Below, one piece after another: positions 2,084 through 60,133 of a DNA stretch of 64,000 nucleotides. The notes below the pieces were generated by a model. The model had not been told where the DNA came from, did no database searches, and was given only the letters and a program-made list of their open reading frames with translations. This DNA is from Phormidesmis priestleyi ULC007 (GTDB taxonomy: Bacteria > Cyanobacteriota > Cyanobacteriia > Leptolyngbyales > Leptolyngbyaceae): contig NZ_MPPI01000006.1 of NCBI RefSeq assembly GCF_001895925.1, forward strand, positions 124,001 through 188,000. The letters are read 5' to 3'. A program made the translations under genes and the position numbers. Within the stretch, counting starts at the first letter, position 1; every line of letters starts with the position of its first letter.

Positions 2084-2467
2084 ATGAAGATAGTCAACCT
2101 GACAGCAGGGATTGTCGGAGTGTTGCTCTTAGTCGGGGCTGTGACGCTGGCAATCACTAACCCGAAACAAGAAGCGTTTGAAAATTTTGCAGTCCAGCGC
2201 ATTCGGGAAGATGCCTGCAAGAAGGCACCTTTAGGGCTGGCAAGCCAATGTCCAAAATTTGTGGATGACAATCAAGCCGAGATCAAAAAGGTGATTACTC
2301 GCAACACCGATCGCCAAGATTTTCTGCTATTTAGCTTTTATCAAACCGACTTATCAGTCCGGGCGATCGTGCCCGATTTAGCCTTTCTTCCCGGAATGCC
2401 GACCTACCACTTTGAGACAGTCGGCTTGTTTGGAAAATTCTATATATACGAAGCAAAAAAACGGTAA
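2084..2467 (+). CDS. DUF4359 family protein
   Basis: The protein has 127 residues and a hydrophobic N-terminus (about residues 4-24, IVNLTAGIVGVLLLVGAVTLAIT) followed by NP, which serves as a signal anchor or signal peptide. The rest is a small soluble domain with two Cys residues (ACKKAP, SQCPKF) that could form a disulfide, and a conserved-looking FYQTDLSVRAIVP...YHFETVGLFGKFYIY block. This matches DUF4359, a cyanobacterial family of unknown function. It is probably exported or membrane-tethered. A dispersed repeat starts 12 bp after the stop codon. Confidence 0.75.
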   Translation: MKIVNLTAGIVGVLLLVGAVTLAITNPKQEAFENFAVQRIREDACKKAPLGLASQCPKFVDDNQAEIKKVITRNTDRQDFLLFSFYQTDLSVRAIVPDLAFLPGMPTYHFETVGLFGKFYIYEAKKR

Positions 2468-2479
2468 TCAAATTCTTTT

Positions 2480-2651
2480 AACGTCAGTTCGATCAGGTCT
2501 TTCGCTTCATTGTAGAGGGCTTGTGTCTCCTAAATCCCCCATTCTGGAGGACTTCAGTCCCAATTTTCGTTTCAAAGTCCCTCACTTGTGGGGGATTTAG
2601 GGGGCTTTCCAGAGGTACAACCGCAGCACAGGATCTCGTCGAATTCACGTT
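2480..2651. repeat. Family A MITE-like element, copy 1
   Basis: This 172-bp element begins AACGTCAGTTCGA and ends TCGAATTCACGTT, which are near-inverted termini. Its middle is a long imperfect palindrome built from CCTAAATCCCCCATT and GGGGGATTTAGGGGG. It is flanked by CTTTT on both sides (2475-2479 and 2652-2656), a 5-bp target duplication. The right duplication overlaps the crcB stop codon. It has no coding capacity. Confidence 0.85.
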
Positions 2652-4969: not shown

Positions 4970-5207
4970 GATCGTGAATTAAATAAACGTCAGTTCGACG
5001 AGTTTTTTCGCTTCGTCAAGCGCGGCTTCTGCTCCCTAAATCCCCCATTCGGGGGGACTTTGAACCGGAATCTTGGCTTGAAGTCCCCCAGTTTTGGGGA
5101 TTTAGGGGGCAGCCCAGATTGGCAACCGTAGCGAAAAGCTTCATCGAATTCACGTTAAATAAAGCAGAAATCTGTGTAAGGGCATGGCACTGCCGTGTCC
5201 ATTAGCG
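4970..5207. repeat. Family B repeat, interrupted by a family A element
   Basis: The left part, 4970-4985 (GATCGTGAATTAAATA), and the right part, 5157-5207 (AAATAAAGCAGAAATCTGTG through GGCATGGCACTGCCGTGTCC), together reproduce the uninterrupted family B copy at 12333-12390. The family A element fills 4986-5156. The shared AAATA is present once in the intact copy and twice here. Confidence 0.85.
4986..5156. repeat. Family A MITE-like element, copy 2
   Basis: This 171-bp element begins AACGTCAGTTCGACGAG and ends CGAATTCACGTT. It has the usual palindromic core (CCCTAAATCCCCC / GGGGATTTAGGGGG). It is flanked by AAATA at 4981-4985 and 5157-5161. It lies between the peptidase gene and aspS. Confidence 0.9.
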
Positions 5208-7159: not shown

Positions 7160-7202
7160 GAGCGCGGATTCAATAGAGACGCGCTGTGTTCCAGTCCTTT
7201 CA

Positions 7203-7271
7203 GCCCCCTAAATCCCCCATTTTGGGGACTTTGAACAGATCTAGTTCCCCCAGAATTGGGGGTCAGGGGGC
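7203..7271. repeat. Family A repeat, core-only copy
   Basis: Only the palindromic middle is present (CCCCCTAAATCCCCCATTTT ... CCCAGAATTGGGGGTCAGGG), without the AACGT termini. It lies 43 bp after aspS. As a strong hairpin it may also act as a 3'-end structure for the aspS transcript. Confidence 0.7.
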
Positions 7272-8722: not shown

Positions 8723-8777
8723 CCAAGATGGGATTGCTATAGAATCGTAAGGGACTCATCTACCAGAAAATTTAGTT

Positions 8778-8951
8778 AACGTCAGTTCGATGAGTTTTCT
8801 CGCTTCGTTATTCAGCGCTTCAGCCCCCTAAACCCCCCAAAATTGGGGGACTTTGAACCTCAATTCTGGGCTTGGAGTCCCCCAGAATTGGCGGATTTAG
8901 GGGGCAGCCCGGATTGGCAACCGCAGCGAAAAGCTTCATCGAATTCACGTT
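8778..8951. repeat. Family A MITE-like element, copy 3
   Basis: This is a full-length copy (AACGTCAGTTCGATGAG to CGAATTCACGTT) with the palindromic CCCCCTAAACCCCCC core. The flanks TAGTT and AATGA do not match, so no target duplication is left. It occupies most of the gap between tocopherol cyclase and the histidine kinase. Confidence 0.85.
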
Positions 8952-12332: not shown

Positions 12333-12390
12333 GATCGTGAATTAAATAAAGTAGGAATCGGTGTAAGGACATGGCACTGCCGTGCCCATT
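12333..12390. repeat. Family B repeat, uninterrupted copy
   Basis: The copy reads GATCGTGAATTAAATAAAG, then GTGTAAGGACATGGCACTGC, then CGTGCCCATT. It contains the palindromic GGCACTGCCGTGCC segment. It matches the two halves around 4970-5207 and partly matches 52310-52345. It lies upstream of tatC. Confidence 0.75.
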
Positions 12391-12497
12391 GACGTTGCAA
12401 GTAATCGATATTATTGATCCACGATCTTTTAAGGAGAGATTCTCTCAGTGAGGATCGGCTAAATTTGCTGGGTGAAACCTCTGCTGGTCAAAAGGGG

Positions 12498-15692: not shown

Positions 15693-15758
15693 GGATGCGG
15701 ACTAAAAATTCTGAGCCTTTATCTGCAAGCGCCTCGTTCACAACTCTTGTAATAAATA

Positions 15759-15932
15759 AACGTCAGTTCGACGAGTTTTTTCGCTTCGTTGTCAGCGGCT
15801 TCTGCCCCCTAAATCCCCCATTCTGGGGGACTTTGAACCGGAAATTTTGGCTTGAAGTCCCCCAAAATTGGGGGATTTAGGGGGCTGCCCGAATTCACAA
15901 GCGGAGCGAACTACTTCTGTCGAACTGACGTT
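15759..15932. repeat. Family A MITE-like element, copy 4
   Basis: This 174-bp copy has the best inverted termini: AACGTCAGTTCGACGAG at the left and TCGAACTGACGTT at the right. It is flanked by AAATA at 15754-15758 and 15933-15937. The palindromic core is intact. Confidence 0.9.
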
Positions 15933-16080
15933 AAATAAGCAATTATACTTAATGTCAAAGTCAAGAACTTTATTTGCATGAATTTTGAGAGGCGCTGGAA
16001 GAGCAGCTTTTCCAGCAAAAGACTGTAGTTGCGGGATGGTCTGAAAACGGCAATGTAAATCGAGAGTTTCAGCCCTTACT

Positions 16081-21813: not shown

Positions 21814-22127
21814 TAGACTTCCTGCATGAATTTGGACAGCGATCGCCAACCCTTCTTGAGAATAAGGGAGCCAGAACTCTCTTGTTCCCTCTCCTTCGGG
21901 CTACCGTTGTATACATAAGTCATTTCGCTTCGTTTTGAGCGGCTTCTGCCCCCTAAATCCCTCAAAAATGGGAGACTTTGAGACTGGAAGTCTGGGGTCA
22001 AAGTCCCCCAGAATGGGGAATTTAGGGGGCGACCCCCAGCCATCCGAACTGAAAGCAATTTGTGTATACACAGCAGTTCCTTGGGGAGAAGGGTTGGCGA
22101 GGGCAGAGTATTCATGCAGGAAGTCTA
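21814..22127. repeat. Family C repeat, split by a nested family A variant
   Basis: The outer ends are an 18-bp inverted repeat: TAGACTTCCTGCATGAAT (from 21814) and ATTCATGCAGGAAGTCTA (to 22127). Inside, the remains of a smaller unit (GGGAGCCAGAACTCTCTTGT, CCTTCGGG, GAGAAGGGTTGGCGAGGGC) flank an inserted family A variant at about 21909-22069. It fills the gap between the two binding-protein genes. Confidence 0.75.
21909..22069. repeat. Family A variant with GTATAC ends
   Basis: It has the same palindromic core as family A (CCCCTAAATCCCTC / GGGGAATTTAGGGGG), but the ends read GTATACATAAGTCATTTCGC and AAGCAATTTGTGTATAC. The right-end sequence recurs at 50740-50765, which defines a subfamily. 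Borders are approximate. Confidence 0.65.
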
Positions 22128-22287: not shown

Positions 22288-23697
22288 ATGACTAGTCAGT
22301 GGTATGACAAACTACAGAGAATTTGGCCAAGACCTAGATTTGCTGCGATCGGCTTAGGGTTGCTGGCGGTTTGTCTAATATTTGTTACTTCAAACTGGAT
22401 GCTGTCGAACTTGACGCGATCGCATCCTCATAAAGTCACGCTCAGTTTTGTCGTGCCAAACAATGAGGCACAACCGTGGCAGTCTTTGATTGACGAATTT
22501 GAAACAGCCCATCCCAAAATTGCGATCGATTTGGTAAACCTTCGTGACCAAGATGCAATCAAGCCGCAAGATCCTAGAGCCGTCAAAAAGCAGTATATTG
22601 ATTCATTCAATCAGGAAAACCCTCTCTACGACTTGGTTTTCATGGATATTATTTGGGTTCCCGAATTTGCGAAGAAACAATGGATTCGAGATTTACCAAT
22701 GCAACCCACCGATCCAGAGTTGAAGAAATTTCTCAGCGATGATGTCAAGGGTGGAATATATCAAAACAAACTGTATCGAATGCCCGTCCGCTCTGATATT
22801 GGCTGGCTCTATTACCGTACTGATCTACTCAAAGATGCAGGATTGAAGCCACCAGAGACGTTTGAGGAGTTGATCGACAGTTCTCAGAAACTTCAAGCCA
22901 AAGAACTGCGTTGGGGATATCTTTGGCAAGGACGACAATCGGAAGCCCTCTCAGCAATGTTTGTTGAAGTTCTCCACGGGTATGGCGGGTTCTGGATTAA
23001 TGAAAAGCTGGACGTGGGGCTAGATCGAACTGAAGCGATCGCAGCCGTTCAATTTTTGCATGACACTATGTTCGATCAAAACCCCATTTCTCCTAAAACA
23101 CTGACAACCTATCGGGAAGATGAAACGCTCAAGCTATTCCTAGAAGGTAAAGCCGCTTTCTTGCGAAACTGGTCAAATGTTCTGCCGCGAGCTAATCTAA
23201 CAGATTCTAATATCCGCAACAAAATTGGTGTGAAACCGATGGTTCATACGTCAGGTTATACGAGTGGCGGCTGTCAGGGAGGATGGGGATTAGGAATTGC
23301 TCAAAGAACGCAGCATCCAGAAGAAGCTTGGCAAGCGGTTCAATTCTTTACCAGTGCAGCAGCGCAGCGCAAACTCTTTCTTGCTGCCAGCGATGGATTA
23401 CCCACCAGGCGAGAACTATTCAAGGACTCACAACTCGTCAAACGGTACAGTCACTATCCAGCAATCCTAGACTTCTTTGAAAATCAAAAGCCGCACCCGA
23501 TCGTTTTACGTCCTGCTATCTCCCAATACGCCCAAGCAACCTGCATCTTACAAAAATATCTCCATACCGCTCTGACTCAAGAGAATCCAGAGATTGAAAG
23601 AAAAATGCAAGATGCTGCTAGAGATACTAGGATTTTGCTCAAAACGATCGAGGGTACACCGAATGAAAAGGGTTGTATCTTTGACGATCGTGGGTAA
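22288..23697 (+). CDS. Second sugar-type extracellular binding protein, membrane-anchored
   Basis: This 469-residue protein has an N-terminal hydrophobic helix (about 19-41, AAIGLGLLAVCLIFVTSNWML). It lacks a lipobox, so it is probably tethered by an uncleaved anchor. The rest is a family 1 binding-protein fold: VTLSFVVPNNEAQPWQSLIDEFETAHPKI, then YDLVFMDIIWVPEFAKKQWI and a C-terminal GGWGLGIAQRTQHPEEAWQAVQFF. It diverges from the ABC operon and probably feeds the same permeases. Two binding proteins for one transporter would broaden the substrates. Its stop codon touches a truncated family A copy. Confidence 0.88.
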   Translation: MTSQWYDKLQRIWPRPRFAAIGLGLLAVCLIFVTSNWMLSNLTRSHPHKVTLSFVVPNNEAQPWQSLIDEFETAHPKIAIDLVNLRDQDAIKPQDPRAVKKQYIDSFNQENPLYDLVFMDIIWVPEFAKKQWIRDLPMQPTDPELKKFLSDDVKGGIYQNKLYRMPVRSDIGWLYYRTDLLKDAGLKPPETFEELIDSSQKLQAKELRWGYLWQGRQSEALSAMFVEVLHGYGGFWINEKLDVGLDRTEAIAAVQFLHDTMFDQNPISPKTLTTYREDETLKLFLEGKAAFLRNWSNVLPRANLTDSNIRNKIGVKPMVHTSGYTSGGCQGGWGLGIAQRTQHPEEAWQAVQFFTSAAAQRKLFLAASDGLPTRRELFKDSQLVKRYSHYPAILDFFENQKPHPIVLRPAISQYAQATCILQKYLHTALTQENPEIERKMQDAARDTRILLKTIEGTPNEKGCIFDDRG

Positions 23698-23700
23698 TCA

Positions 23701-23783
23701 GAGTTCAAAGTTCCCCAGAATTGGGGGATTTAGGGGGCTGAGGCCTTGAAGAACGAAGCGAAAAACCTCGTCGAACTGACGTT
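23701..23783. repeat. Family A element, left-truncated copy
   Basis: Only the right half is present (GAGTTCAAAGTTCCCCAG to TCGAACTGACGTT). It is nevertheless flanked by AATCA at 23696-23700 and 23784-23788, which overlap the stop codons of the two convergent genes. It is 83 bp long and fills the entire gap. Confidence 0.75.
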
Positions 23784-23785
23784 AA

Positions 23786-26700
23786 TCAAGGGCAAATCTC
23801 TCGATCGTTCTCATGACCCATGTAGCGCTTCCACTCCTTCTGTGTGAGGTTGTCTGTAATGTGTTCACAAGCTTTACGATGTAAATCTTCTAATCGCCAG
23901 AACCATACTGCTGTTGCGTCTGAGCTGACCGTTGCAATCTTCTGATCGTCTGGGAGCTTAAAGGTGACAGCATTGACTGGCTTTGCATGATCCAAGCGTA
24001 CAACTTCTTGACCACTAGATCTCTCCCATACTCTTGCTGTTTTATCATCACTCGCCGTTGCAACAAACTGATCATTAGAACTAAAAGCGATCGCATTGAC
24101 TCTACCATCGTGGCTCAATGCAACAGGCACCGCATTCTGACAATGCTTGAGATCCCAAACCCGTCCTCGACTATCTAAGCTGCCCGTTGCTAGATATTGT
24201 TCATTGTGGCTGAATGCGATCGCAATCACACCCCCTTCATGTTGCAGCGTCGCACACTGTTGCCCGTCTTTCTGAAACACTTTTGCTTTATTGTCATCAC
24301 TTGCCGTTGCAATCAAGTTACCCTGCAAACTAAAGGTGACTGCATTGATTTTACTTTCATGAGTCCAGTTAGCTAAACGTTGCTGGGTTGCCACATCCCA
24401 CAACGTCGCTGTGTTATCAGCCCCCGCTATCACCAGCCGCAAACCATCATGGCTCAACGCGATCGCCTCCACAGAACTCTCTGATGAAAACTTCTGAACG
24501 GGATCACGAGTTCTCTTGATCAAGGTTTTGGGATTAGAGGTAAACTGATCATCATCAGGAACTCTCCAAACCCGTACTGTATTATCATCGCTAGCAGTGG
24601 CGAAGAACTTATTATTCTGGCTAAAAGTAATGAACTGATTCACACTCTTGTCCTGGCTGATCTCTACGACAGCAGAGTCACCCCTGTTTGTTTTCCACAA
24701 CTGTATCGTTGTTTTCTCTTGGCGAGGATCAGAACTCGATATCGCGCTGAGTTGTCTATCTGGGCTGAAAACCGCTGCTTTCGCAGAATCATTGTGTGCT
24801 AGGCTCACCGTTGCATTATCCCTGATTTTCCACAAGTGGGCTTTATTGTCCAAACTTGCAGTTGCAATCAACTTCTCGTTTTCTAGACTCGGATTAAATG
24901 CGACAGCACTCACAAAGTCCTGATGAGGAATGTAAGCAATCGGCTTACCACTCGCAATGTCCCAAACTCTCACCATCTTGTCCATACTTGCAGTAACCAT
25001 CAATTTGCTGTCATAGCTCATTGATACAGCCGTGACCGCTTGCTCATGCTGTAATGTTATCGGTGGACGATCGCTTCCCACCTCCCATATCGCGGCTGTC
25101 TTGTCTAAGCTAGCAGTTGCCACATACTTTCCATCCGGGCTGAATGCAACATCGAGAATTGCGCCTTTATGCTTCAGCAACTGCCCAACCCGTTCTCCAC
25201 TAGCGGTCTTCCAAACCTGAGCAGTCCCGTCAGCACTTGCTGTAACGATTAACTTCCCATCGGGGCTGAAGGTTAGAGCATTGACGCTATTGCCCTTATG
25301 AGACGAGATTAGCTTGCCGCTCGTTACTTCCCAAACCTGAGATGTAATCCGCGTCTCACCAAGCTGGTTCAGATTAACAGTATCAACAGTCGCAGTCGCA
25401 ATAAACTTGCTATCAGAACTGAATGCGATCGCATTGACATAAGCCGAAAGTTTTAAGCGTCTAATCAATTTCCAGCTTTTAGTCTCCCGGATTTGAACAG
25501 TATTATCACTTGCTATTGCAATAAATTTCGCTTCGTCATCAGAAGTAAAGGCAATAGCATTCACTTTACCAGTATTATTTAGACGCTCAACCTTGCCGCT
25601 GAATACATTCCATACATTGATCATCCCGTTTAAGCTAGTAGATATTAAGTGTTTTCCTGTGCGGCTAAAGGCAACTGTTTCCACGTCATCAAGATGTTCC
25701 ACAGTTTTAAGCAAACGGGGTAGAGCATCTAATCGACGATACAAAACTTGCGCTGCGTCTGGAGAGAAGCGTCCCTGATCCTTGAATTGTTGCATTGCCT
25801 CTAGCGCCAGCAGTACACTGATTCGCGGATTGCTAGATACTTGAGCCTGCGTCACAAGCGTTTGTCGTTTTATCTCCTGTAATCTACTCCCGACAAACAC
25901 CAGACTGAGTACCAGAATAATCAGCAGAGCGAAGTAAATAAACCGTCGAGTTAATTGCCGAGTTAACCGCTTGAGCTTTCGTCGATTTAGTTTGTTAGCG
26001 CTGGCGGTCAAAAATCGTTGATCCTCATTGCTGAGATGTTTGTCTTTTGCCCATTCCATGGCTTCTTGAAATGCTGGCTCATCTAAAAGCCAACCCCCAT
26101 CCTGACAACCAGAAGCGAACCAATTGGCTAACGCATCGCCATAGAGACGACGCTTCTTGACTAGCTCCTCAGCCACCCAAGTTTGGTTAAAAACCTCACG
26201 ATAAATCCGGTTATGAATTCTTAATTGATGATGTCGTTCCACCACTAATCCAGACAGGCACAGTTTCATTTGTTCGGGGCTGTGATCGGCAGTAACGTCT
26301 TGCTGACGTAAGATTTGCTGATACAGTCCTAGCAGAAAACAGGCTTGCTGATCATTGACTAGAATACGATCGCGGATATGACTAAGATGACCTTTTTCAT
26401 CCTGGAATTCCCAGTTTTGAATGATGCGCGATCGCACGAGTTTCTCAACCCACTCCGCTTCATCGCCAACTGGAATCAAGGCTTTACTGGTCTGGATCAG
26501 CGCACAGAGCCGTTGAGTCAGAAAGGGTTGCCCATTAGTCCACGCTAAGACCTGTTTCAAGACAGCTTCAGAATCGCCAATGCCAATTAACCCCTTCGCT
26601 AATGGTTTGGCTTCTTCAAACTGAAACCCTGCCAGTTGAATGGCTTGACCAATATTAAAGGGAGTGAATTCTTTATCTTGAATCAAATCTGAGGGAGTCG

Positions 26701-45894: not shown

Positions 45895-46572
45895 ATGCTC
45901 ATGAACGACTGCTGGAATCAAATCGGCGTTTGGGGCGATCGCTCATGCAGTCAGCTAGAAACGGTGACTCACTGCCGCAACTGTCCCGTTTATTCGACGG
46001 CAGGGCGCAGTTTGTTAGAGCGAGATATTCCGCTTGATTATCTCAACGAGTGGATGGCCGCGATCGCCACACCCGCAAACGAAGTGATCAATCCTTCGGA
46101 CGATCGCCCTGTCTTAAAAGGGTCAGCAGATCCGCTGTCTGTGATTCTGTTTCGTCTCGGAGACGAACAGTTTGCCCTACCCGTGAGCGTACTCCACGAA
46201 GTCACCCATCCTGGTGCAATTCACCGATTGCCTCATCGCAGCAACGACGTGTTTTTGGGGCTGATTAACATTCGGGGCGAGATTTTGATGACAATATCGT
46301 TGAGTCAGTTTCTCGGCTTAAAATCGGTGACAGATTCTTCGTCTCTCAATCGACTGTTAGTAGTGGGGCACGACGATCGCAAGTGGGTGTTTCCAGTCGA
46401 TGAAGTGCATCGCATTCATCGCGTCCAGGCAAGTGAGTTAAAAGAAGTGCCTGTTGTTGTGTCTCAAGCAAGTCAGGCATACACCCAAGGGATTATTGAC
46501 TGGCAGACCAAAAAGGTGAATTATCTGGATGCTGACCTGTTGTTTTACACACTTGAGCGCAGCCTATTGTGA
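45895..46572 (+). CDS. CheW-type adaptor with N-terminal Cys cluster (WspD-like)
   Basis: The 225-residue protein starts with the Cys-rich segment CWNQIGVWGDRSCSQLETVTHCRNCPVY, a hallmark of WspD-like adaptors and a possible metal site. A CheW domain follows from about residue 78 (SVILFRLGDEQFALPVSVLHEVTHPGAIHRLPHRSNDVFLGLINIRGEILMTISL). It couples the receptor to the kinase. It starts 6 bp after the MCP gene, and its stop codon overlaps a possible upstream cheA start. Confidence 0.92.
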   Translation: MLMNDCWNQIGVWGDRSCSQLETVTHCRNCPVYSTAGRSLLERDIPLDYLNEWMAAIATPANEVINPSDDRPVLKGSADPLSVILFRLGDEQFALPVSVLHEVTHPGAIHRLPHRSNDVFLGLINIRGEILMTISLSQFLGLKSVTDSSSLNRLLVVGHDDRKWVFPVDEVHRIHRVQASELKEVPVVVSQASQAYTQGIIDWQTKKVNYLDADLLFYTLERSLL

Positions 46573-46589
46573 TGAGCCGTGGAGACCCT

Positions 46590-49574
46590 ATGAGCGATTA
46601 CTCCATGCTGGATCTATTTCGTCAAGAAGTAGAGACTCAGGTCAAATCTCTCAAGCAAAGCCTGTCGATTTTAAAGCAGCAGCCCTCGTTAGGTGGCGAA
46701 TTGGATACGGCAATTCGATCGCTCCATGCAATTACTGGCTCGGCCCAACTGGTTGAAATCGCAGCCGTCGCCACGCTATCTGAAACGATGCGAGTCAGAT
46801 TAATGGCGATGCAAGCTAACTCGATTGCTTTGTCCGATGTGCTGATTGAGCAACTCCTCCACGCAGGAGATCTGCTAGTAGAAATGAGTGATGCGACTGA
46901 AGAAATCGATCGTTGGCTATCAGATCACGCCGAAGATTTGGCCCAGACGCAAACGGCGATCGTGGGAGGTAACGGAGAGTCTATGCCTCCTCCCATCCAG
47001 CAAAGGACGGGGCACACAGAAGTCATCGAATCTAGCTCTGATCATCAGGTTCGCCCTCCTAGCCCCCCCAGGGAAACCAAAGTTCAAAGTCCCCCAATTT
47101 TGGGGGATTTAGGGGGCGAAGATCTCGGCAATGACGGATCGAAAGACTCCCGCGTACACGACACTATCCCAAAAGAGATCAGGGCAAACCCTCCCGAAAC
47201 GCCCGACTTAAAACCACCCAATGACCCCCAACCCAATCCGCCATCTCTGCTGTTAGATAGCTCGATGATGGATTTGTTTCGGCTAGAAGTTGAGGCACAG
47301 GCGACCCTCTTAAATAATGGTCTTTTAGCGTTAGAGACTCAGCCCCGATCGGCTCAAGAATTAGAAGCCTTGATGCGAGCCGCTCACTCGATCAAAGGGG
47401 CCGCTCGCATTGTGGGTTTAGATGCCGCAGTTCACCTTGCTCACGCGATGGAAGACTGCTTTGTTGCGGCTCAAAGTCAGACGATTAGACTCGATGGCGA
47501 TCGCGTTGATGTGCTGCTGCGAGGCGTTGATTTGCTGCAAAATCTCGGTCAGGTGAGTGATGCCGATTTACCCGCTTGGCTCACAAAACATGACTTGGAC
47601 TTTGCATCGGTGCGATCGACGATCGAGGCGATTCGCAACCCAGAGACATCGGCTGTCATTCAACCTTTAGAGGCGAATGTGATTCCACAAGCACCGATCG
47701 CGCCCACGCCTGCCGCCCCGACTTCAGACGCTACTGATGTACCGAAAACGACAACTCCCGAAGTCAGTGTCTCTCCGATAGAATCAAGCCCTACTGAATC
47801 ATCAACGATTCAGGATCGCGTCGTGCGAGTCAGCGCCGACAATCTCAACCGCATGATGGGACTCGCGGGCGAATCGCTGATCGAGGCAAATTGGCTGCCG
47901 CCGTTTGCAGATGCACTTGGGGCGCTTAAATCTCAGCAGCTAAAGCTTTCTAAATACCTAGAGCAGTTGCAGCAAAACGCTCTGGCGAATCCTATCGATC
48001 AAACGGCTAAAACGCTACTCGACGCGACCCGCAAACAGGATCAAGAATGCCGAAAACTACTCAACGATCGCTTGATCGAACTCGAAGAATTTATTCGGCG
48101 ATCGACAAATCTCTCCGATCGGCTCTATCGAGAAGTGATCACCTCAAATATGCGGCCGTTTATGGATGGGATGCCAGGGTTTCCGCGCATGGTGCGAGAT
48201 CTTGCCCGCACCACTAACAAGCAAGTCAAGTTAGAGATTGTTGGAAAATCCACCTCGGTCGATCGCGACATTCTCAAAAAGCTAGAGGCCCCGCTCACGC
48301 ACATTTTGCGAAACGCAGTGGATCACGGCATAGAACTGCCAGAAGATCGCGTCGCAGCAGGCAAACTCGCCGAAGGAACAATTCGATTAGAGGCGATGCA
48401 CCGAGGCGGAATGTTAGCGATTACGATCGCCGATGATGGCAAAGGCATTGCGCCGATGCTGCTGCGTCAACAAATTGTTGATAAAAAATTAGTCACACCC
48501 GACGTTGCCACCCAGCTTACCGACGCTGAACTGATGGAGTTTTTGTTTCTACCCGGCTTCTCAATGTCAAAGCAAGTCACCGAACTCTCTGGTCGAGGCG
48601 TGGGTTTAGACATTGCCAAGAACATGGCGCAAGAAGTAGGCGGCACGGTGCGGGCAACTTCACAGCCTGGAAAAGGCATCAGTTTTTACTTTCAGCTTCC
48701 CTTAACGCTCTCCGTCGTGCGGACTTTGCTCGTCGAAGTGTCTGGCGAAACCTATGCGTTTCCTCTGGCTCGAATCGATCAAATTGTAGCGGTTAAGCCT
48801 GCCGAGATTTCAGTGGTCGAAACGCGTCAATATTTCACACTTGATCAAAAAAACATTGGTCTGATTCCAGTCCATCAAGTGCTCGATTTGCCACCGCCTC
48901 CGTCATTGTCTGATCCGCTTTGGGTCGTGGTAATTAGCGATCAGGCAAACACCTATGGGCTAGTGGTCGATCGCTGCCTTGGAGAACGAGAACTGGTCGT
49001 GCGTCCGCTCGATGCTCGGTTAGGTAAAGTGCAAGATATCAGTGCAGCCGCCCTGATGGGAGACGGATCGCTGGTGCTGATTGTCGATGTGTCTGATCTC
49101 GTCCGATCCACTAATACCCTACTCAACGAGAGTACGATCGCCAAAATCAGTCACATCGAAGAGAATTCTGACCTGACCTTAAATGGATCTGCCCATCACA
49201 AAGAGCCAAGGCGAGTGCTGGTAGTAGACGACTCGATCACAGTTCGAGAAATGGAGCGGAAGCTGCTGCAAAATCGCGGCTATCTCGTTGATGTGGCAGT
49301 CGATGGAATGGAAGGCTGGAATGCGGTACGATCGTCTCCTTATGATTTGGTAATCAGCGATATTGATATGCCACGAATGAACGGAATTGAACTGATTAAA
49401 GCGATTAAAGGACATCCCCGACTGGGTGCGATTCCGGTAATTGTGGTGTCTTATCGCGATCGAGAAGACGATCGTATGCAAGGATTAGAAGCAGGCGCAG
49501 ACTATTATCTAACCAAAAGCAGTTTTCATGACGATACGCTGATTCGGGCAGTCATGGATTTGATCGGTGAGTGA
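46590..49574 (+). CDS. CheA-type hybrid kinase, two HPt domains and receiver (WspE-like)
   Basis: I chose ATG 46590 because GGAG lies 7 bp upstream; ATG 46569 is the alternative. The protein has 994 residues. HPt1 (about 5-110) has H46 in SLHAITGS, and HPt2 (about 230-345) has H266 in [10 protein letters not shown]. The catalytic part has the N box [11 protein letters not shown], then ADDGKGI and [12 protein letters not shown] CheW-like domain and a C-terminal receiver ([24 protein letters not shown]) follow. The linker between the HPt domains (about residues 155-176) is partly encoded by a family A repeat. It phosphorylates the CheB and cyclase regulators. Confidence 0.94.
47052..47117. repeat. 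Family A repeat inside the cheA coding sequence
   Basis: Positions 47082-47117 carry the standard right core (TTCAAAGTCCCCCAATTTTG then GGGGATTTAGGGGGC), and 47052-47070 a diverged left arm rich in CCCCCC. Read in the cheA frame it gives [13 protein letters not shown] with no stop codon. It lies in the linker between the two HPt domains. Confidence 0.8.
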
Positions 49575-50599: not shown

Positions 50600-50633
50600 G
50601 ATCATGGATTAAAGGGTCTGTAAAACTTGTGAG

Positions 50634-50765
50634 CGGCTTCTGCCCCCTAAATCCCCCAAAATTGGGGAACTTTGAAACTGAAAGTTTTGGGTCAAAGTCC
50701 CCCAGAATGGGGGATTTAGGGGGCAAATCCCCAGCAATCTGAACTTAAAGCAATTTGTGTCTACG
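50634..50765. repeat. Family A variant with AAGCAATTTGTG end
   Basis: The core (GCCCCCTAAATCCCCCAAAA ... GGGGGATTTAGGGGGC) is complete and the right end is AAAGCAATTTGTGTCTACG, matching the subfamily at 21909-22069. It separates the cheB and cyclase genes. Borders are approximate. Confidence 0.7.
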
Positions 50766-50794
50766 TTCCTTAATGTTCTCTGGTGTTTTTTGGC

Positions 50795-52285
50795 ATGGAC
50801 GATTCGATCACGGTGTTGCTGATTGACGATCAATCGATGATCGCAGAAGCCGTGCGGCGAATGCTGGAGACTGAACCGGATATCACCTTTCACTATTGCA
50901 GTGACCCGACGCAAGCGCTCAAGATTGCTAGAGAGTGCCAGCCCACGGTGATTTTGCAAGATCTGGTAATGCCACAAATGGATGGGCTGCTGTTGGTGCG
51001 CTTTTTACGATCGCACGATGCCCCCACCTATCAGATTCCGCTAATCGTGCTGTCGAGCAAAGAAGAGCCTGTGATCAAAGCCCAGGCGTTTGAACTGGGC
51101 GCAAACGACTATCTCGTCAAGCTGCCCGATCGCGTTGAGCTGCTCGCCCGCATTCGCTATCACTCTAGAGCCTACACCAATCTGCTCAAGCGCCAAGAAG
51201 CCGAAGCGATGCTGCGCGACGAAAACCAGCGACAGGCACTCTACATTCAACAGGTTGATAAATTGACCCATGCTGCCGTGACGGTCGAGCAAGACACCTT
51301 TGAGTCTGAGAGTTTGAGTGATGTTGTCGATCGCAGTGACGAATTGGGACAACTGGCACGGGTCTTTACTCAAATGGTGAAGACGGTGAAAAATCGCGAA
51401 CAGGAATTGCAGCGATTAAATGATTCCTTTGCGCGATTTTTTCCAGGTGAATATCTCAAGTTTCTTCGCAAAGACAGCGTGACCGAGGTGCAGTTGGGCG
51501 ATTATGTCAGCAAAGTGATGGCAGTGATGTTTAGCGACATCCGATCGTTTACCACGATGTCAGAAACGATGACCCCGCGCGAAAACTTTGATTTTGTGAA
51601 CGCCTATCTCAAGCGCGTCAGTCCAGAGATTCGCAATCACTATGGCATCATCGTCAAATTTTTGGGAGACGGCATGATGGCGGTGTTTCCCGATGGGGCA
51701 GATGATGCGGTGGCGGCGGGGGTTGCCAAACAAAAGCGGGTGCAAGAATATAATCAGCAGCGCCAAGCGAGGGGCAATTTGCCCGTGCAGGTGGGCATTG
51801 GCATTCACGTCGGGCAGATGATGTTAGGCATGGTCGGCGAAGCAAACCGTATTCAGGGCGATGCGTTTTCAGATAATGTCAATTTGACCTCGCGGTTAGA
51901 AGGATTGACCAAGTTTTATGGCGTTGCCATGATCATTTCGGGTCAAACCCTAGAGCATCTCAGCAACCCTGATCGCTATCAGATACGCTTTTTAGATCGC
52001 GCGATCGTCAAAGGACGAAATGAAGCGATCTCAGTCTACGAAGTCTTAGACGCTGAAGTTGAAGAAGTGCGATCGCTCAAACTGCAAACTCAACCTGATT
52101 TTGATCGAGGCGTTAATTGTTATCGCGATCGAGCGATCGGCGATGCCAAGCTTTGTTTTGAGCAAGTGTTAGCCGTTCACCCTGCCGACAAGACCGCAAA
52201 ACTCTATCTAGAGCGAGTGGAATCTTTACTAGAGCAAGGCATCCCCGACGATTGGAATGAGGCGTGGGTGTTTATCGACAAATAA
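50795..52285 (+). CDS. Response regulator with class III adenylate/guanylate cyclase output
   Basis: The ATG at 50795 (MDDSITVLLIDDQ) is preferred over a GTG at 50783. The 496-residue protein has a receiver at about 5-125 with D56 in VILQDLVMP. A HAMP-like segment follows (SDELGQLARVFTQMVKTV) and a linker NDSFARFFPGEYLKFL. The class III cyclase domain is at about 235-410: metal-binding Asp residues in MFSDIRSFTTMSE and KFLGDGMMAVF, and catalytic Asn/Arg in DNVNLTSRLEGL. A short TPR-like tail ends it. The second messenger is probably cAMP, as in other cyanobacterial regulators of this form, but this is not proven. It takes the place of WspR in a Wsp-like pathway. Confidence 0.88.
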   Translation: MDDSITVLLIDDQSMIAEAVRRMLETEPDITFHYCSDPTQALKIARECQPTVILQDLVMPQMDGLLLVRFLRSHDAPTYQIPLIVLSSKEEPVIKAQAFELGANDYLVKLPDRVELLARIRYHSRAYTNLLKRQEAEAMLRDENQRQALYIQQVDKLTHAAVTVEQDTFESESLSDVVDRSDELGQLARVFTQMVKTVKNREQELQRLNDSFARFFPGEYLKFLRKDSVTEVQLGDYVSKVMAVMFSDIRSFTTMSETMTPRENFDFVNAYLKRVSPEIRNHYGIIVKFLGDGMMAVFPDGADDAVAAGVAKQKRVQEYNQQRQARGNLPVQVGIGIHVGQMMLGMVGEANRIQGDAFSDNVNLTSRLEGLTKFYGVAMIISGQTLEHLSNPDRYQIRFLDRAIVKGRNEAISVYEVLDAEVEEVRSLKLQTQPDFDRGVNCYRDRAIGDAKLCFEQVLAVHPADKTAKLYLERVESLLEQGIPDDWNEAWVFIDK

Positions 52286-52309
52286 TTGAATGTCGTACCA
52301 GTTTGATTG

Positions 52310-52345
52310 ACCCGTAGGGATATGGCACTGCCGTGTCCTCTCGCG
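52310..52345. repeat. Family B repeat, partial copy
   Basis: GTAGGGATATGGCACTGCCG and TGTCC match the palindromic part of the family B copies at 5157-5207 and 12333-12390. It lies just upstream of a family A element. Confidence 0.5.
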
Positions 52346-52362
52346 ATCGTTCGATCTATAAA

Positions 52363-52536
52363 AACCTGAATTCGATGAAGCTTTTCGCTGCGGTTGCAAA
52401 TCCGGGCTGCTCCCTAAATCCTCCATCAATGGGGAACTTTGAGCCAAGATTCCCGGTTTCAAAGTCCCCCAGAATGGGGGATTTAGGGGGCAGAAGCCGC
52501 TGAGAACGAAGTGAAAAAACTCGTCGAACTGACGTT
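52363..52536. repeat. Family A MITE-like element, copy in reverse orientation
   Basis: This 174-bp copy runs from AACCTGAATTCGATGAAG to CGTCGAACTGACGTT and is flanked by ATAAA at 52358-52362 and 52537-52541. Relative to copies 1-3, the GAATTC end is on the left, so the element can insert in both orientations. Confidence 0.9.
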
Positions 52537-52616
52537 ATAAAAGATTCTGTTAAACCCCATTGATAACCGCCTTACGATCGTCTAATGATGGGTTACATAA
52601 ATGCGATCGATAATCT

Positions 52617-58122: not shown

Positions 58123-58187
58123 AATCTCTTTTCCTATAAAATATAAAAAATAGGCAGCCCCATCCGTTATGTCTCTCTAGACGAGCC

Positions 58188-58688
58188 TCACGCCTGCTCA
58201 GAATCGATCGCTCTCTTTTTCGGCGTTTCTACCAGCACAGAGATCACGAGTAAACTTAGCCCCATAATTTTGATAAAAGCATTTACCGCATGTGCATACT
58301 CCCATTGATGGCGATACCGCGTCCAATCTACTGGAATGGGGTTAGTCAACCATTTGGAAAATTCAGCGTTCATTGGCGCGACAAACATGACCCAACTCAC
58401 AAGTGCCAGCACCAAGAAAATTGCTCCGCCCATTGTCCAGTAAAAAGTTGAACCCCGATCGCGAACTATAAATGCCAATATAATTGCTGTCAGAACCGAG
58501 GTGATTTCAAAAGCTGCGCCAACTGTGCCAAATAACTTATAAACATTTTCAACAACCGTCACTCTCACCCAGAGTTGCTGGTCAAACTGCATTCTTTGCG
58601 GCAACTCTAGCAAATGTGCCATAGACAGACTGAGGCTAAACGAAGCCAGCATCAGTGTTATGAATCGCCACGATCGGATGAATGTCAT
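58188..58688 (-). CDS. DUF1772-like membrane protein
   Basis: I chose the ATG at 58688 (MTFIRSWRFITLML); the frame extends to 58724 without conserved residues. The protein has 166 residues and four membrane helices. Typical residues are AHLLELPQRMQFDQQLWVRVT, FGTVGAAFEI, FVAPMNAEFSKW and the WEYAHAVNAF helix. DUF1772 is related to anthrone-oxygenase-like proteins, but most members are uncharacterised. A pair of CTGC boxes 21 bp apart lies about 150 bp upstream. Confidence 0.75.
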   Translation of the reverse strand: MTFIRSWRFITLMLASFSLSLSMAHLLELPQRMQFDQQLWVRVTVVENVYKLFGTVGAAFEITSVLTAIILAFIVRDRGSTFYWTMGGAIFLVLALVSWVMFVAPMNAEFSKWLTNPIPVDWTRYRHQWEYAHAVNAFIKIMGLSLLVISVLVETPKKRAIDSEQA

Positions 58689-58838
58689 TTGATTACCTTT
58701 GCGTAGAGAGATTAATGTGAACAACTTTAACTTCTGGCATTACTGTGATAGGTGGTTGTTCTATTTTCTGGATGAGTTGATTGAATAGGGTGCCGAACGT
58801 AGTCAAAAATACACGAGTCCATCATTACCGCATAAAAT

Positions 58839-58863
58839 CTGCCTATTTTCCTTTACCATCTGC
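58839..58863. promoter_or_regulatory. CTGC pair spaced 21 bp
   Basis: ATCTGCCTATTTT (CTGC at 58839) and ATCTGCCTAAG (CTGC at 58860) form a direct repeat two helical turns apart. They lie between the DUF1772 gene and the 3' end of the serine hydrolase gene and match boxes at 28664 and 28684 (ATCTGCCTC). Confidence 0.35.
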
Positions 58864-58921
58864 CTAAGCCTTCGGATTACCAACCAAAACCTTGTTCCAT
58901 GAACGCATCTACGAGTCTGGC

Positions 58922-60133
58922 TTACTTCTCCCCAAAGACTATCTTTGCGATCTGTGTATGCATTTCAGACAGATCCATATCTTGCCGATTGCCCAAGATG
59001 ATGATGACGGTCTTGTCGTTGGGGTAGCGAGCAATGACACTATGAAAGCCACTAACCCCTCCTTCGTGACTGACTATTGAACGATCGCCTTCCTTGCCGA
59101 TGACCCAACCATAGCCATAGCCGAATCCGCCGCCGTTAGGCATCAGGGCAAAAGGAGTGAACAGGATGTCTTGCAAGTTTTTAGGAATCAGTTTGTCGGT
59201 GTACAACGCCTGATCCCAACGGTAGAAGTCTTCCACAGTGGAATACAATCCGCCAGCAGCGTAGGGGATAGACATATCGATGTAATTAGCCGGAACGATC
59301 GTCTGGTCACGATAGCCGACAGCAAGATTGTTGTGGTGGTGGTCGTAGCCCGAATTGACCATCTGCAACGGGACAAAAATATTGTCTCTGAGGAACGCTT
59401 CATAGGTCGCGCCGGATGCCCACTCGATGATGGCACCTAGCACAACATAACCGGAGTTGCTGTAGCTAAACTTTTCACCTGGCTGGAAATCCAACGGTTT
59501 GTCTTTGAACCGTGCGATCGTTTGAGTAGGAGACGACGGCGATCCTTGGGTGGTCTGGAAGTCTGGGAACCGGGTAAAATCTGGGATACCAGAGGTATGG
59601 GTCAAGAGATGATGAAGGGTGATCTTTTGCCATGTGGCAGGGCATTCTGAAAGGTAAGTGCAGATGCGATCGTGAACATTGAGTTTGCCCTGTGTCTGTA
59701 AGATCAGGATTGCCATCGCCGTGAACTGCTTCGTCAGTGAGCCAATCCGAAATTTTGTTTGCGCCGTGTTCACCAGATGCTTTTCGCGGTCTGCCTCGCC
59801 ATACCCCTTTCTGACCAGAACTTTGCCGTTTCGCGCAATCAGCACTGACCCGCTAAAGAGCCTCTCTTTAGTCAGTTTGTCCAGGTATAGGTCAGCTTTG
59901 GAGATGATGTCCTGATCTGCTGGAAAAGCTGAGGCGGCAGTTGCAGAAGGTGGGGCTGGACTCGTCGCAGATGTAGCTACGGTAGTGGTTTCAAGCTGAG
60001 GTGTTGGCGTTGGTATTGTCGCTGTCGCCGACGAGGTTGGCAGCCATATTCCCCAAGAAAGGAGATAGATAAGACCAACAAACGAGGGGATGGAGTGATG
60101 ATTTGCCCACTGGTGAAGATGAATTTGAAGCAT
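58922..60133 (-). CDS. Beta-lactamase-family serine hydrolase
   Basis: The 403-residue protein has an N-terminal membrane/signal segment (about 15-38) and a Pro/Thr/Ala-rich linker to about 70. The class C-like hydrolase domain follows: SxxK nucleophile motif in IGSLTKQF, Tyr motif YSNSGY and HEGGVSGF replacing KTG. These residues suit a D-Ala peptidase or esterase, not clearly an antibiotic-degrading enzyme. It is secreted or membrane-tethered and monocistronic. Confidence 0.9.
   Translation of the reverse strand: MLQIHLHQWANHHSIPSFVGLIYLLSWGIWLPTSSATATIPTPTPQLETTTVATSATSPAPPSATAASAFPADQDIISKADLYLDKLTKERLFSGSVLIARNGKVLVRKGYGEADREKHLVNTAQTKFRIGSLTKQFTAMAILILQTQGKLNVHDRICTYLSECPATWQKITLHHLLTHTSGIPDFTRFPDFQTTQGSPSSPTQTIARFKDKPLDFQPGEKFSYSNSGYVVLGAIIEWASGATYEAFLRDNIFVPLQMVNSGYDHHHNNLAVGYRDQTIVPANYIDMSIPYAAGGLYSTVEDFYRWDQALYTDKLIPKNLQDILFTPFALMPNGGGFGYGYGWVIGKEGDRSIVSHEGGVSGFHSVIARYPNDKTVIIILGNRQDMDLSEMHTQIAKIVFGEK

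Follow-up and report, generated by a model that had tools for sequence, protein, structure and literature searches.

How does a piece of a dispersed repeat come to be read as part of a signalling protein, and what becomes of that protein? The question is raised by a cheA-type gene of Phormidesmis priestleyi ULC007, described in PMC5313606 as an Antarctic cyanobacterium. We studied the gene within a window of 64 kb (C102:124001-188000), the whole stretch of DNA that was analysed, taken from a draft assembly of 5,684,389 bases in 118 contigs. According to the original prediction, a diverged copy of a mobile repeat had been captured as a protein linker between two HPt domains. Our analysis leads to a similar but broader answer: the segment is very probably a copy of a high-copy palindromic, MITE-like element that was captured in frame and is now CheA linker sequence. 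The gene and the relevant parts of its product are as follows.

46569..49574, plus strand: cheA-type hybrid kinase gene, 1001 aa, intact (ORF list and Pfam); domain order in the product HPt1, linker, HPt2, H-kinase_dim, HATPase_c, CheW, response regulator (Pfam).
46605..46967, plus strand: HPt1, residues 13-133, degenerate; the His is kept here and the Lys of HxxKG is Thr (Pfam, motif check, AlphaFold2).
46971..47252, plus strand: HPt1-HPt2 linker, residues 135-228, predicted to be disordered (AlphaFold2, pLDDT <50).
47259..47636, plus strand: HPt2, residues 231-356, with the canonical phospho-acceptor motif AHSIKG (Pfam, motif check, AlphaFold2).

The listed start codon is GTG, and translation may well begin instead at an ATG further in, ahead of SDYSML. 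HPt, dimerisation, HATPase and CheW domains, by which membership of the CheA class was tested, were all recognized by Pfam, and two NCBIfam CheA equivalogs stayed under their cut-offs with this product (among the best 25 of 103 families). The gene adjoins a CheW-domain gene and a CheB-type gene (Pfam).

Translation of 47052-47117 confirmed that the repeat is read in the cheA frame without a stop: these bases make up exactly 22 in-frame codons of an ORF of 1001, and the peptide originally quoted corresponds to the last 13 of them (47079-47117). A neighbouring frame was predicted to terminate within the repeat, and indeed both other forward frames are stopped there, one by the TAG of GATTTAGGGG and the other by the TAG of CCTAGCC. 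The placement between two HPt domains also proved right, as Pfam Hpt falls into two stretches and AlphaFold2 predicts helical bundles at residues 13-133 and 231-356, with the correction that the first HPt is degenerate. Judging by the intact ORF, the segment is probably translated.

The segment was said to be a diverged member of a repeat family, and here the DNA evidence is strong. It is 85% identical to another copy in the window over 47 bp. When 47030-47245 was compared with the ULC007 genome by BLAST, at least 69 matches including itself were obtained (40 of 327 candidates scored; these are matches, not copies). Several of the matches listed extend to query base 130 or 131 (47159-47160), and among them the last 85 query bases are covered by the self-match only. 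Nine genome copies aligned with the cheA copy have inverted arms outside the core, mostly CTACGGTGTACACACAAGTC-like with the complement opposite. A profile of nine aligned copies, from which the cheA copy was left out (profile 1), matched 47080-47163 on the plus strand with an E-value of 4.3e-24 in a search of 826 kb. It also matched 47008-47159 on the minus strand (E 1.2e-10), because the element is palindromic. The identity over 47 bp, the profile E-value and the number of own-genome matches together place the segment in the family far above chance.

The same results bear on the idea that a Pro/Gly-rich linker merely happens to resemble the repeat. Pro/Gly-rich linkers are low in complexity, and Pro-rich ones are found in other orthologues; however, the profile match spans 84 bp that include the right arm, which is not Pro/Gly-rich, and DNA identity to the five best other genome copies reaches 87-95% over 59-78 bp (BLAST). 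A match of this kind at the DNA level, by BLAST as well as by profile, rules out chance resemblance for all practical purposes.

Although 47052-47117 does lie inside the element, alignment, profile and arm tests indicate that it is only the middle of a longer unit. The parts of the whole are listed below.

47007..47163, plus strand: the captured palindromic element as a whole, spanning about 52 codons (residues 147-198) with approximate outer limits (alignment, profile, arm tests).
47007..47051, plus strand: left arm, decayed, ACGGGGCACACAGAAGTC... against the consensus ACGGTGTACACACAAGTC... (shuffle tests).
47052..47070, plus strand: left half core, decayed, GCCCTCCTAGCCCC against GCCCCCTAAATCCCC (alignment; own-genome BLAST matches begin at query base 22).
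47080..47117, plus strand: right half core, near-canonical, TCAAAGTCCCCC..GGGGGATTTAGGGGGC, reads as 12 residues (BLAST, profile, translation).
47118..47163, plus strand: right arm, well conserved, GAAGATCTCGGCAATGACG...GTACACG (alignment, profile, arm tests).

Taken alone, the left arm exceeded dinucleotide shuffles against two consensus arms (p 0.0004 and 0.0008), and 0 of 543 windows of the same gene were as good. Against the best of 18 single arms the result was less sharp (p 0.009, 0 of 268 gene windows). The left half core by itself did not rise above shuffles (p 0.229). In the same battery, a control stretch at 47165-47230 reached p 0.010 against one arm, so values near 0.01, such as those for the BC1401 remnant described below, weigh little. 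On balance, about 52 CheA residues (147-198), and not 13, would be derived from the element, the left boundary being the least certain part. We could discern no target duplication flanking the cheA copy. RNA folding of 47005-47165 was unremarkable (z -1.48; 15 of 200 shuffles as good).

Another explanation to consider is an error in the assembly, namely a chimaera at the repeat, or a gene that is broken. The draft state of the assembly, in 118 contigs, speaks for this, as a high-copy repeat could mislead an assembler. Against it, the cheA copy is unlike the canonical ones (its left half is decayed and its core measures about 65 bp vs about 82 bp), the ORF is uninterrupted across the six domains that Pfam recognizes, and the contig continues to 207,709 bp. 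We regard a chimaera or pseudogene as very improbable.

A repeat search of the 64-kb window yielded a family, D2, of nine aligned copies including that in cheA. The other copies in the window, to which no strand was assigned, are given with the repeat families that define them.

2466..2651: CGTCAGTTCGA-armed copy (D2, D4, D12).
4972..5157: CGTCAGTTCGA-armed copy (D2, D4, D9).
7199..7262: core (D7, D14).
8764..8951: CGTCAGTTCGA-armed copy (D2, D3, D4, D12).
15745..15939: CGTCAGTTCGA-armed copy (D2, D4, D16).
21933..22069: copy (D2, D3, D19).
23692..23790: right part of a copy (D2, D9, D16).
50627..50764: copy directly downstream of cheB (D2, D3, D19).
52394..52543: CGTCAGTTCGA-armed copy (D2, D3, D9, D16).

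Two arm types, CGTCAGTTCGA and CTACGGTGTACACAC, occur on one common core. A scan of the whole window against Rfam at gathering thresholds returned two tRNAs only. A different dispersed repeat, GTAAGGGCATGGCACTGCCGTGTCC, has three window copies (5176-5207, 12363-12394 and 52314-52345; D15). At 50609-50977, a 122-aa ORF on the minus strand crosses a repeat copy; it is probably no gene, yet it could be annotated as a protein. Outside the window, the same contig carries a tandem array of three head-to-tail copies of the element, about 185 bp each (C102:118473-119031).

On the genome scale, profile 1 found 80 copies in 825,888 bases, with merged lengths of 58-204 bp; the contigs were picked for carrying BLAST match rows and not for their ORFs. 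An ORF of at least 120 aa spans 5 of the 80, and two lie well inside long ORFs, namely cheA and a glycosyltransferase gene. After a second profile had been made for CGTCAGTTCGA-armed copies and more contigs had been added, the two profiles together raised the count to 111 copies (35 bits or more) in 1,190,890 bases. Four of the 111 lie inside ORFs of at least 200 aa, a share that is biased because parts of two contigs (C36 and C103) were added after matches there were known. Exact GGGGATTTAGGGG occurs 87 times in forward and 80 times in reverse orientation in 1.19 Mb of ULC007. In 376,515 bases of BC1401, which belongs to the same genus, the family is sparse: we counted two exact GGGGATTTAGGGG and two exact reverse strings, the two profiles gave 9 and 10 rows at E 0.01, and one copy has long arms.

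Reading frames stay open in 68 of 666 cases across the 111 copies, and 46 copies have at least one such frame; most insertions into genes would therefore end them. The peptide of the cheA frame gave at least 149 matches in the own genome at E <=10 (150 of 180 candidates scored). Among the matches listed, only those in cheA (1005 aa) and on C103 (1034 aa) lie in open frames longer than 160 aa. The latter is a HEAT-repeat protein of about 1033 aa (C103:349-3447, minus strand) that contains HTQSPSILGDLGG, a half copy in the cheA frame.

The clearest evidence that the family moves comes from a glycosyltransferase-like gene (PMT_2, C30:304243-306021), which carries a CGTCAGTTCGA-armed copy. Compared with BC1401, the gene shows a gap of 138 bases (46 codons) between well-matched flanks, as well as a separate 3-base indel. 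The 8-bp sequence TGGTTTAA flanks the insert on both sides and is present once in BC1401, so that the 138 bases resolve into a 130-base element plus an 8-base target duplication. This clean insertion, absent from BC1401, shows that the repeat family is mobile, and it supports the claim that a mobile element has become part of a signalling protein. In orthologues from other genera (L205, L206 and L208), low-complexity, repeat-like stretches are seen at the loop where the ULC007 insert lies.

Two further genes of ULC007 have in-frame copies. MenD (TIGR00173) shows a 120-base gap against BC1401; in the case of MenE the open frame has 511 aa vs 463 in BC1401, and the DNA alignment is less clean at the insert. 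The two genes lie on one contig (C36; MenE at about 50942-52450, MenD at 58131-59981), with the in-frame copies within about 9 kb. In other relatives most MenE and MenD matches break at the insert places. MenE of G006 and MenD of G007 were matched in one piece, and both are longer at the insert place. The MenD gene of G007 has a half core of the family (E 5.4e-5) at the same inter-domain place as its ULC007 counterpart. An ORF adjoining menE of G006 has a weak profile match. A copy at C30:202120-202215 was dropped as an in-gene candidate, since the ORF there (543 aa) probably has its start beyond the repeat.

With these genes in hand, the element can be compared with known systems. By the description in PMC10969869, in-frame fusions of MITEs are not unusual, and Rickettsia palindromic elements (RPEs) are the frequent case; their presence inside protein-coding genes is credited to Ogata et al. 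2000 and 2002, as cited via PMC10969869 and PMC3733652, and nearly half of the copies in R. conorii are given as in-gene (PMC10969869). PMC3733652 describes REPs within genes; in Xanthomonas recB, REPs that differ from each other occupy roughly one site. As far as these descriptions go, the ULC007 elements are like RPEs in being palindromes of about 150 bp that lie in frame in unrelated, intact genes (cheA, the glycosyltransferase gene, MenD and MenE) and add peptide to proteins that probably still work. They differ in belonging to another phylum, in that in-gene copies are a small minority (2 of 80), and in showing inverted arms, target duplication and recurrent capture at homologous linkers of orthologues.

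Small size, terminal inverted repeats, target duplication and high copy number liken the family, by description, to cyanobacterial MITEs such as Nezha (PMC10969869), from which it differs in carrying two arm types on one core. The terminal inverted repeats, CTACGGTGTACACACAAGTC / GACTTGTGTGTACACCGTAG or close to them, are present in most aligned copies and decayed in that of cheA. The 8-bp duplication belongs to a copy of the other arm type, the one in the glycosyltransferase gene. Both the number of copies (111 of at least 35 bits) and their lengths (58-204 bp in the first 80) agree with the many copies of about 70-300 bp expected of MITEs. GTAG- and CGTC-tagged REPs are likewise described as high-copy palindromes, some in frame inside genes (PMC3733652); unlike them (20-40 bp, tag at one end), the element has about 130-165 bp and arms at both ends, so it does not belong to that class. 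The letters GTAG and CGTC also occur in its arms.

When did the cheA insertion occur? CheA of BC1401 is 80% identical over residues 218-1001, and its HPt1-HPt2 linker counts 29 residues vs 90 in ULC007. Missing from BC1401 cheA are 183 bases, namely the core and right arm plus about 70 bases free of any repeat match. The sequence that BC1401 retains on the left resembled one arm consensus (p 0.007; none of 543 gene windows did as well) and not the other (p 0.587, 374 of 543). With the best of 18 arms as reference its p was 0.016, a level reached by 3 of 268 gene windows. A second copy of it is not clearly seen elsewhere in the BC1401 genome, where the best other hit has an E-value of 0.131. 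BC1401 cheA may thus keep a remnant of the left arm, to which these tests point weakly.

We rejected a recent, precise insertion into ULC007 cheA that would make BC1401 the clean empty site, because BC1401 lacks too long a stretch and may retain part of the left arm. For the same reasons the event cannot be polarised: from the sequences compared, a deletion in BC1401 and a post-split insertion in ULC007 appear about equally likely. It is fair, for instance, to read the locus as an old insertion of which BC1401 later lost a part. Consequently, the claim that the repeat lengthened a flexible linker stands in part: the linker is predicted to be disordered, but its lengthening in the ULC007 lineage does not follow, since the 183-bp difference exceeds the element.

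Why cheA could accommodate the insert may be seen from the protein. In the AlphaFold2 model, computed from six aligned sequences (pTM 0.42), residues 135-228 have pLDDT <50 between the helical bundles at 13-133 and 231-356. For comparison we collected from the fetched loci the distinct cyanobacterial CheA genes in which HPt1 and HPt2 are both present, 18 in all (34 rows, duplicates removed by hand; three non-cyanobacterial rows were set aside). The linker ranges from 24 to 118 aa over these orthologues. The HxxKG motif of HPt2 is kept in 18/18, and in HPt1 the phospho-acceptor His is found in 9/18 and the motif Lys in 0/18. HPt1 is thus apparently losing its phospho-acceptor role, which would place its tether under weak constraint. 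A disordered linker that joins a degenerate HPt1 to a canonical HPt2 may account for the tolerance of the insert.

Put together, the course of events could have been the following. An element of about 130-165 bp, palindromic, high-copy and probably non-autonomous, would have inserted into cheA, perhaps before ULC007 and BC1401 separated, with the later deletion in BC1401. The gene would have survived by virtue of an insertion that kept the frame, an element frame free of stops and a site in the disordered tether between the two HPt domains. The element would now be read as about 52 residues of a Pro/Gly/Ser-rich linker, and its effect on signalling would be near-neutral. We claim no positive function for the linker peptide.

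The original prediction proposed a comparison of orthologues, with a linker sequence shared by all of them as the sign that it predates the repeat. No such sharing was observed. The family was found in the linker of 3 of the 18 CheA genes, those of ULC007, G006 and FACHB-502. In G006 the match is strong (E 2.8e-23) and the frame, PLNPP..GGFRG, differs from that of ULC007; in FACHB-502 it reaches 29.6 bits and is read in the ULC007 frame, SELGDLGG. These linker pieces gave at least 77 and at least 40 match rows, respectively, in their own genomes, including themselves (40 candidates scored in each case). Profile matches at E <=1 in the 18 genes (50,214 bases) all fall within the HPt1-HPt2 linker, and 14 of the genes have no profile match at this threshold. 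Since the sequences and positions differ, as does the frame in G006, independent insertions into cheA are likelier than one ancient event.

Recurrence of this kind, together with the shared inter-domain place in two MenD genes, invites the stronger proposal that a repeat-derived Pro/Gly-rich tether was selected for the spacing of HPt1 and HPt2, which would make the capture adaptive and not just tolerated. Several observations tell against it: linkers free of the family often reach a similar length (24-106 aa in the 15 remaining genes), the frames differ (GDLGG in ULC007 and FACHB-502, GGFRG in G006), unrelated repeats occupy the same CheA linker, HPt1 is decaying, and captures are found in unrelated genes too. 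We consider such recruitment unlikely and retain tolerated in-frame capture as the better account. A more general proposition is that the CheA linker and that just after the middle domain of MenD act as recurrent capture sites, invaded separately by this palindromic family in different genera and by other repeat families too, and that mobile palindromes regularly supply these proteins with new linker sequence; it strikes us as evenly balanced between true and false.

In-frame capture of palindromes as such is known from Rickettsia; what appears to be new here is the element and its recurrence in CheA and MenD linkers. A literature search of titles and abstract openings, with most subscription journals outside its coverage, returned no paper on the element or on capture in cheA or MenD linkers, and four core strings searched as text gave results unrelated by title. 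The locus adds a further documented setting outside Rickettsia, in a photosynthetic bacterium, in which selfish-looking palindromic DNA has probably turned into protein. It is worth stressing that the genes hit have well-understood products, namely a chemotaxis-type kinase and two steps of phylloquinone synthesis (MenD and MenE). Pairs of ULC007 and BC1401 genes with and without the insert make it possible to ask whether such peptides are tolerated ballast or change the protein, and the repeated capture at homologous linkers hints at the places where proteins tolerate such inserts.

Other repeats were also met in the HPt1-HPt2 linker. The CheA gene of G033 (L007) gave a weak profile match at the linker (16.3 bits), which we assigned to another palindrome family. 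The palindrome near 1953-2031 of this locus, CCCTCACCC...GGGTGAGGGC, differs in sequence, gives 20 match rows in the genome of G033 and is likewise read in frame. In two further CheA genes (L004 and L009) the linker contains short tandem repeats, GGCAGAG and GTCAGCA, that are read in frame.
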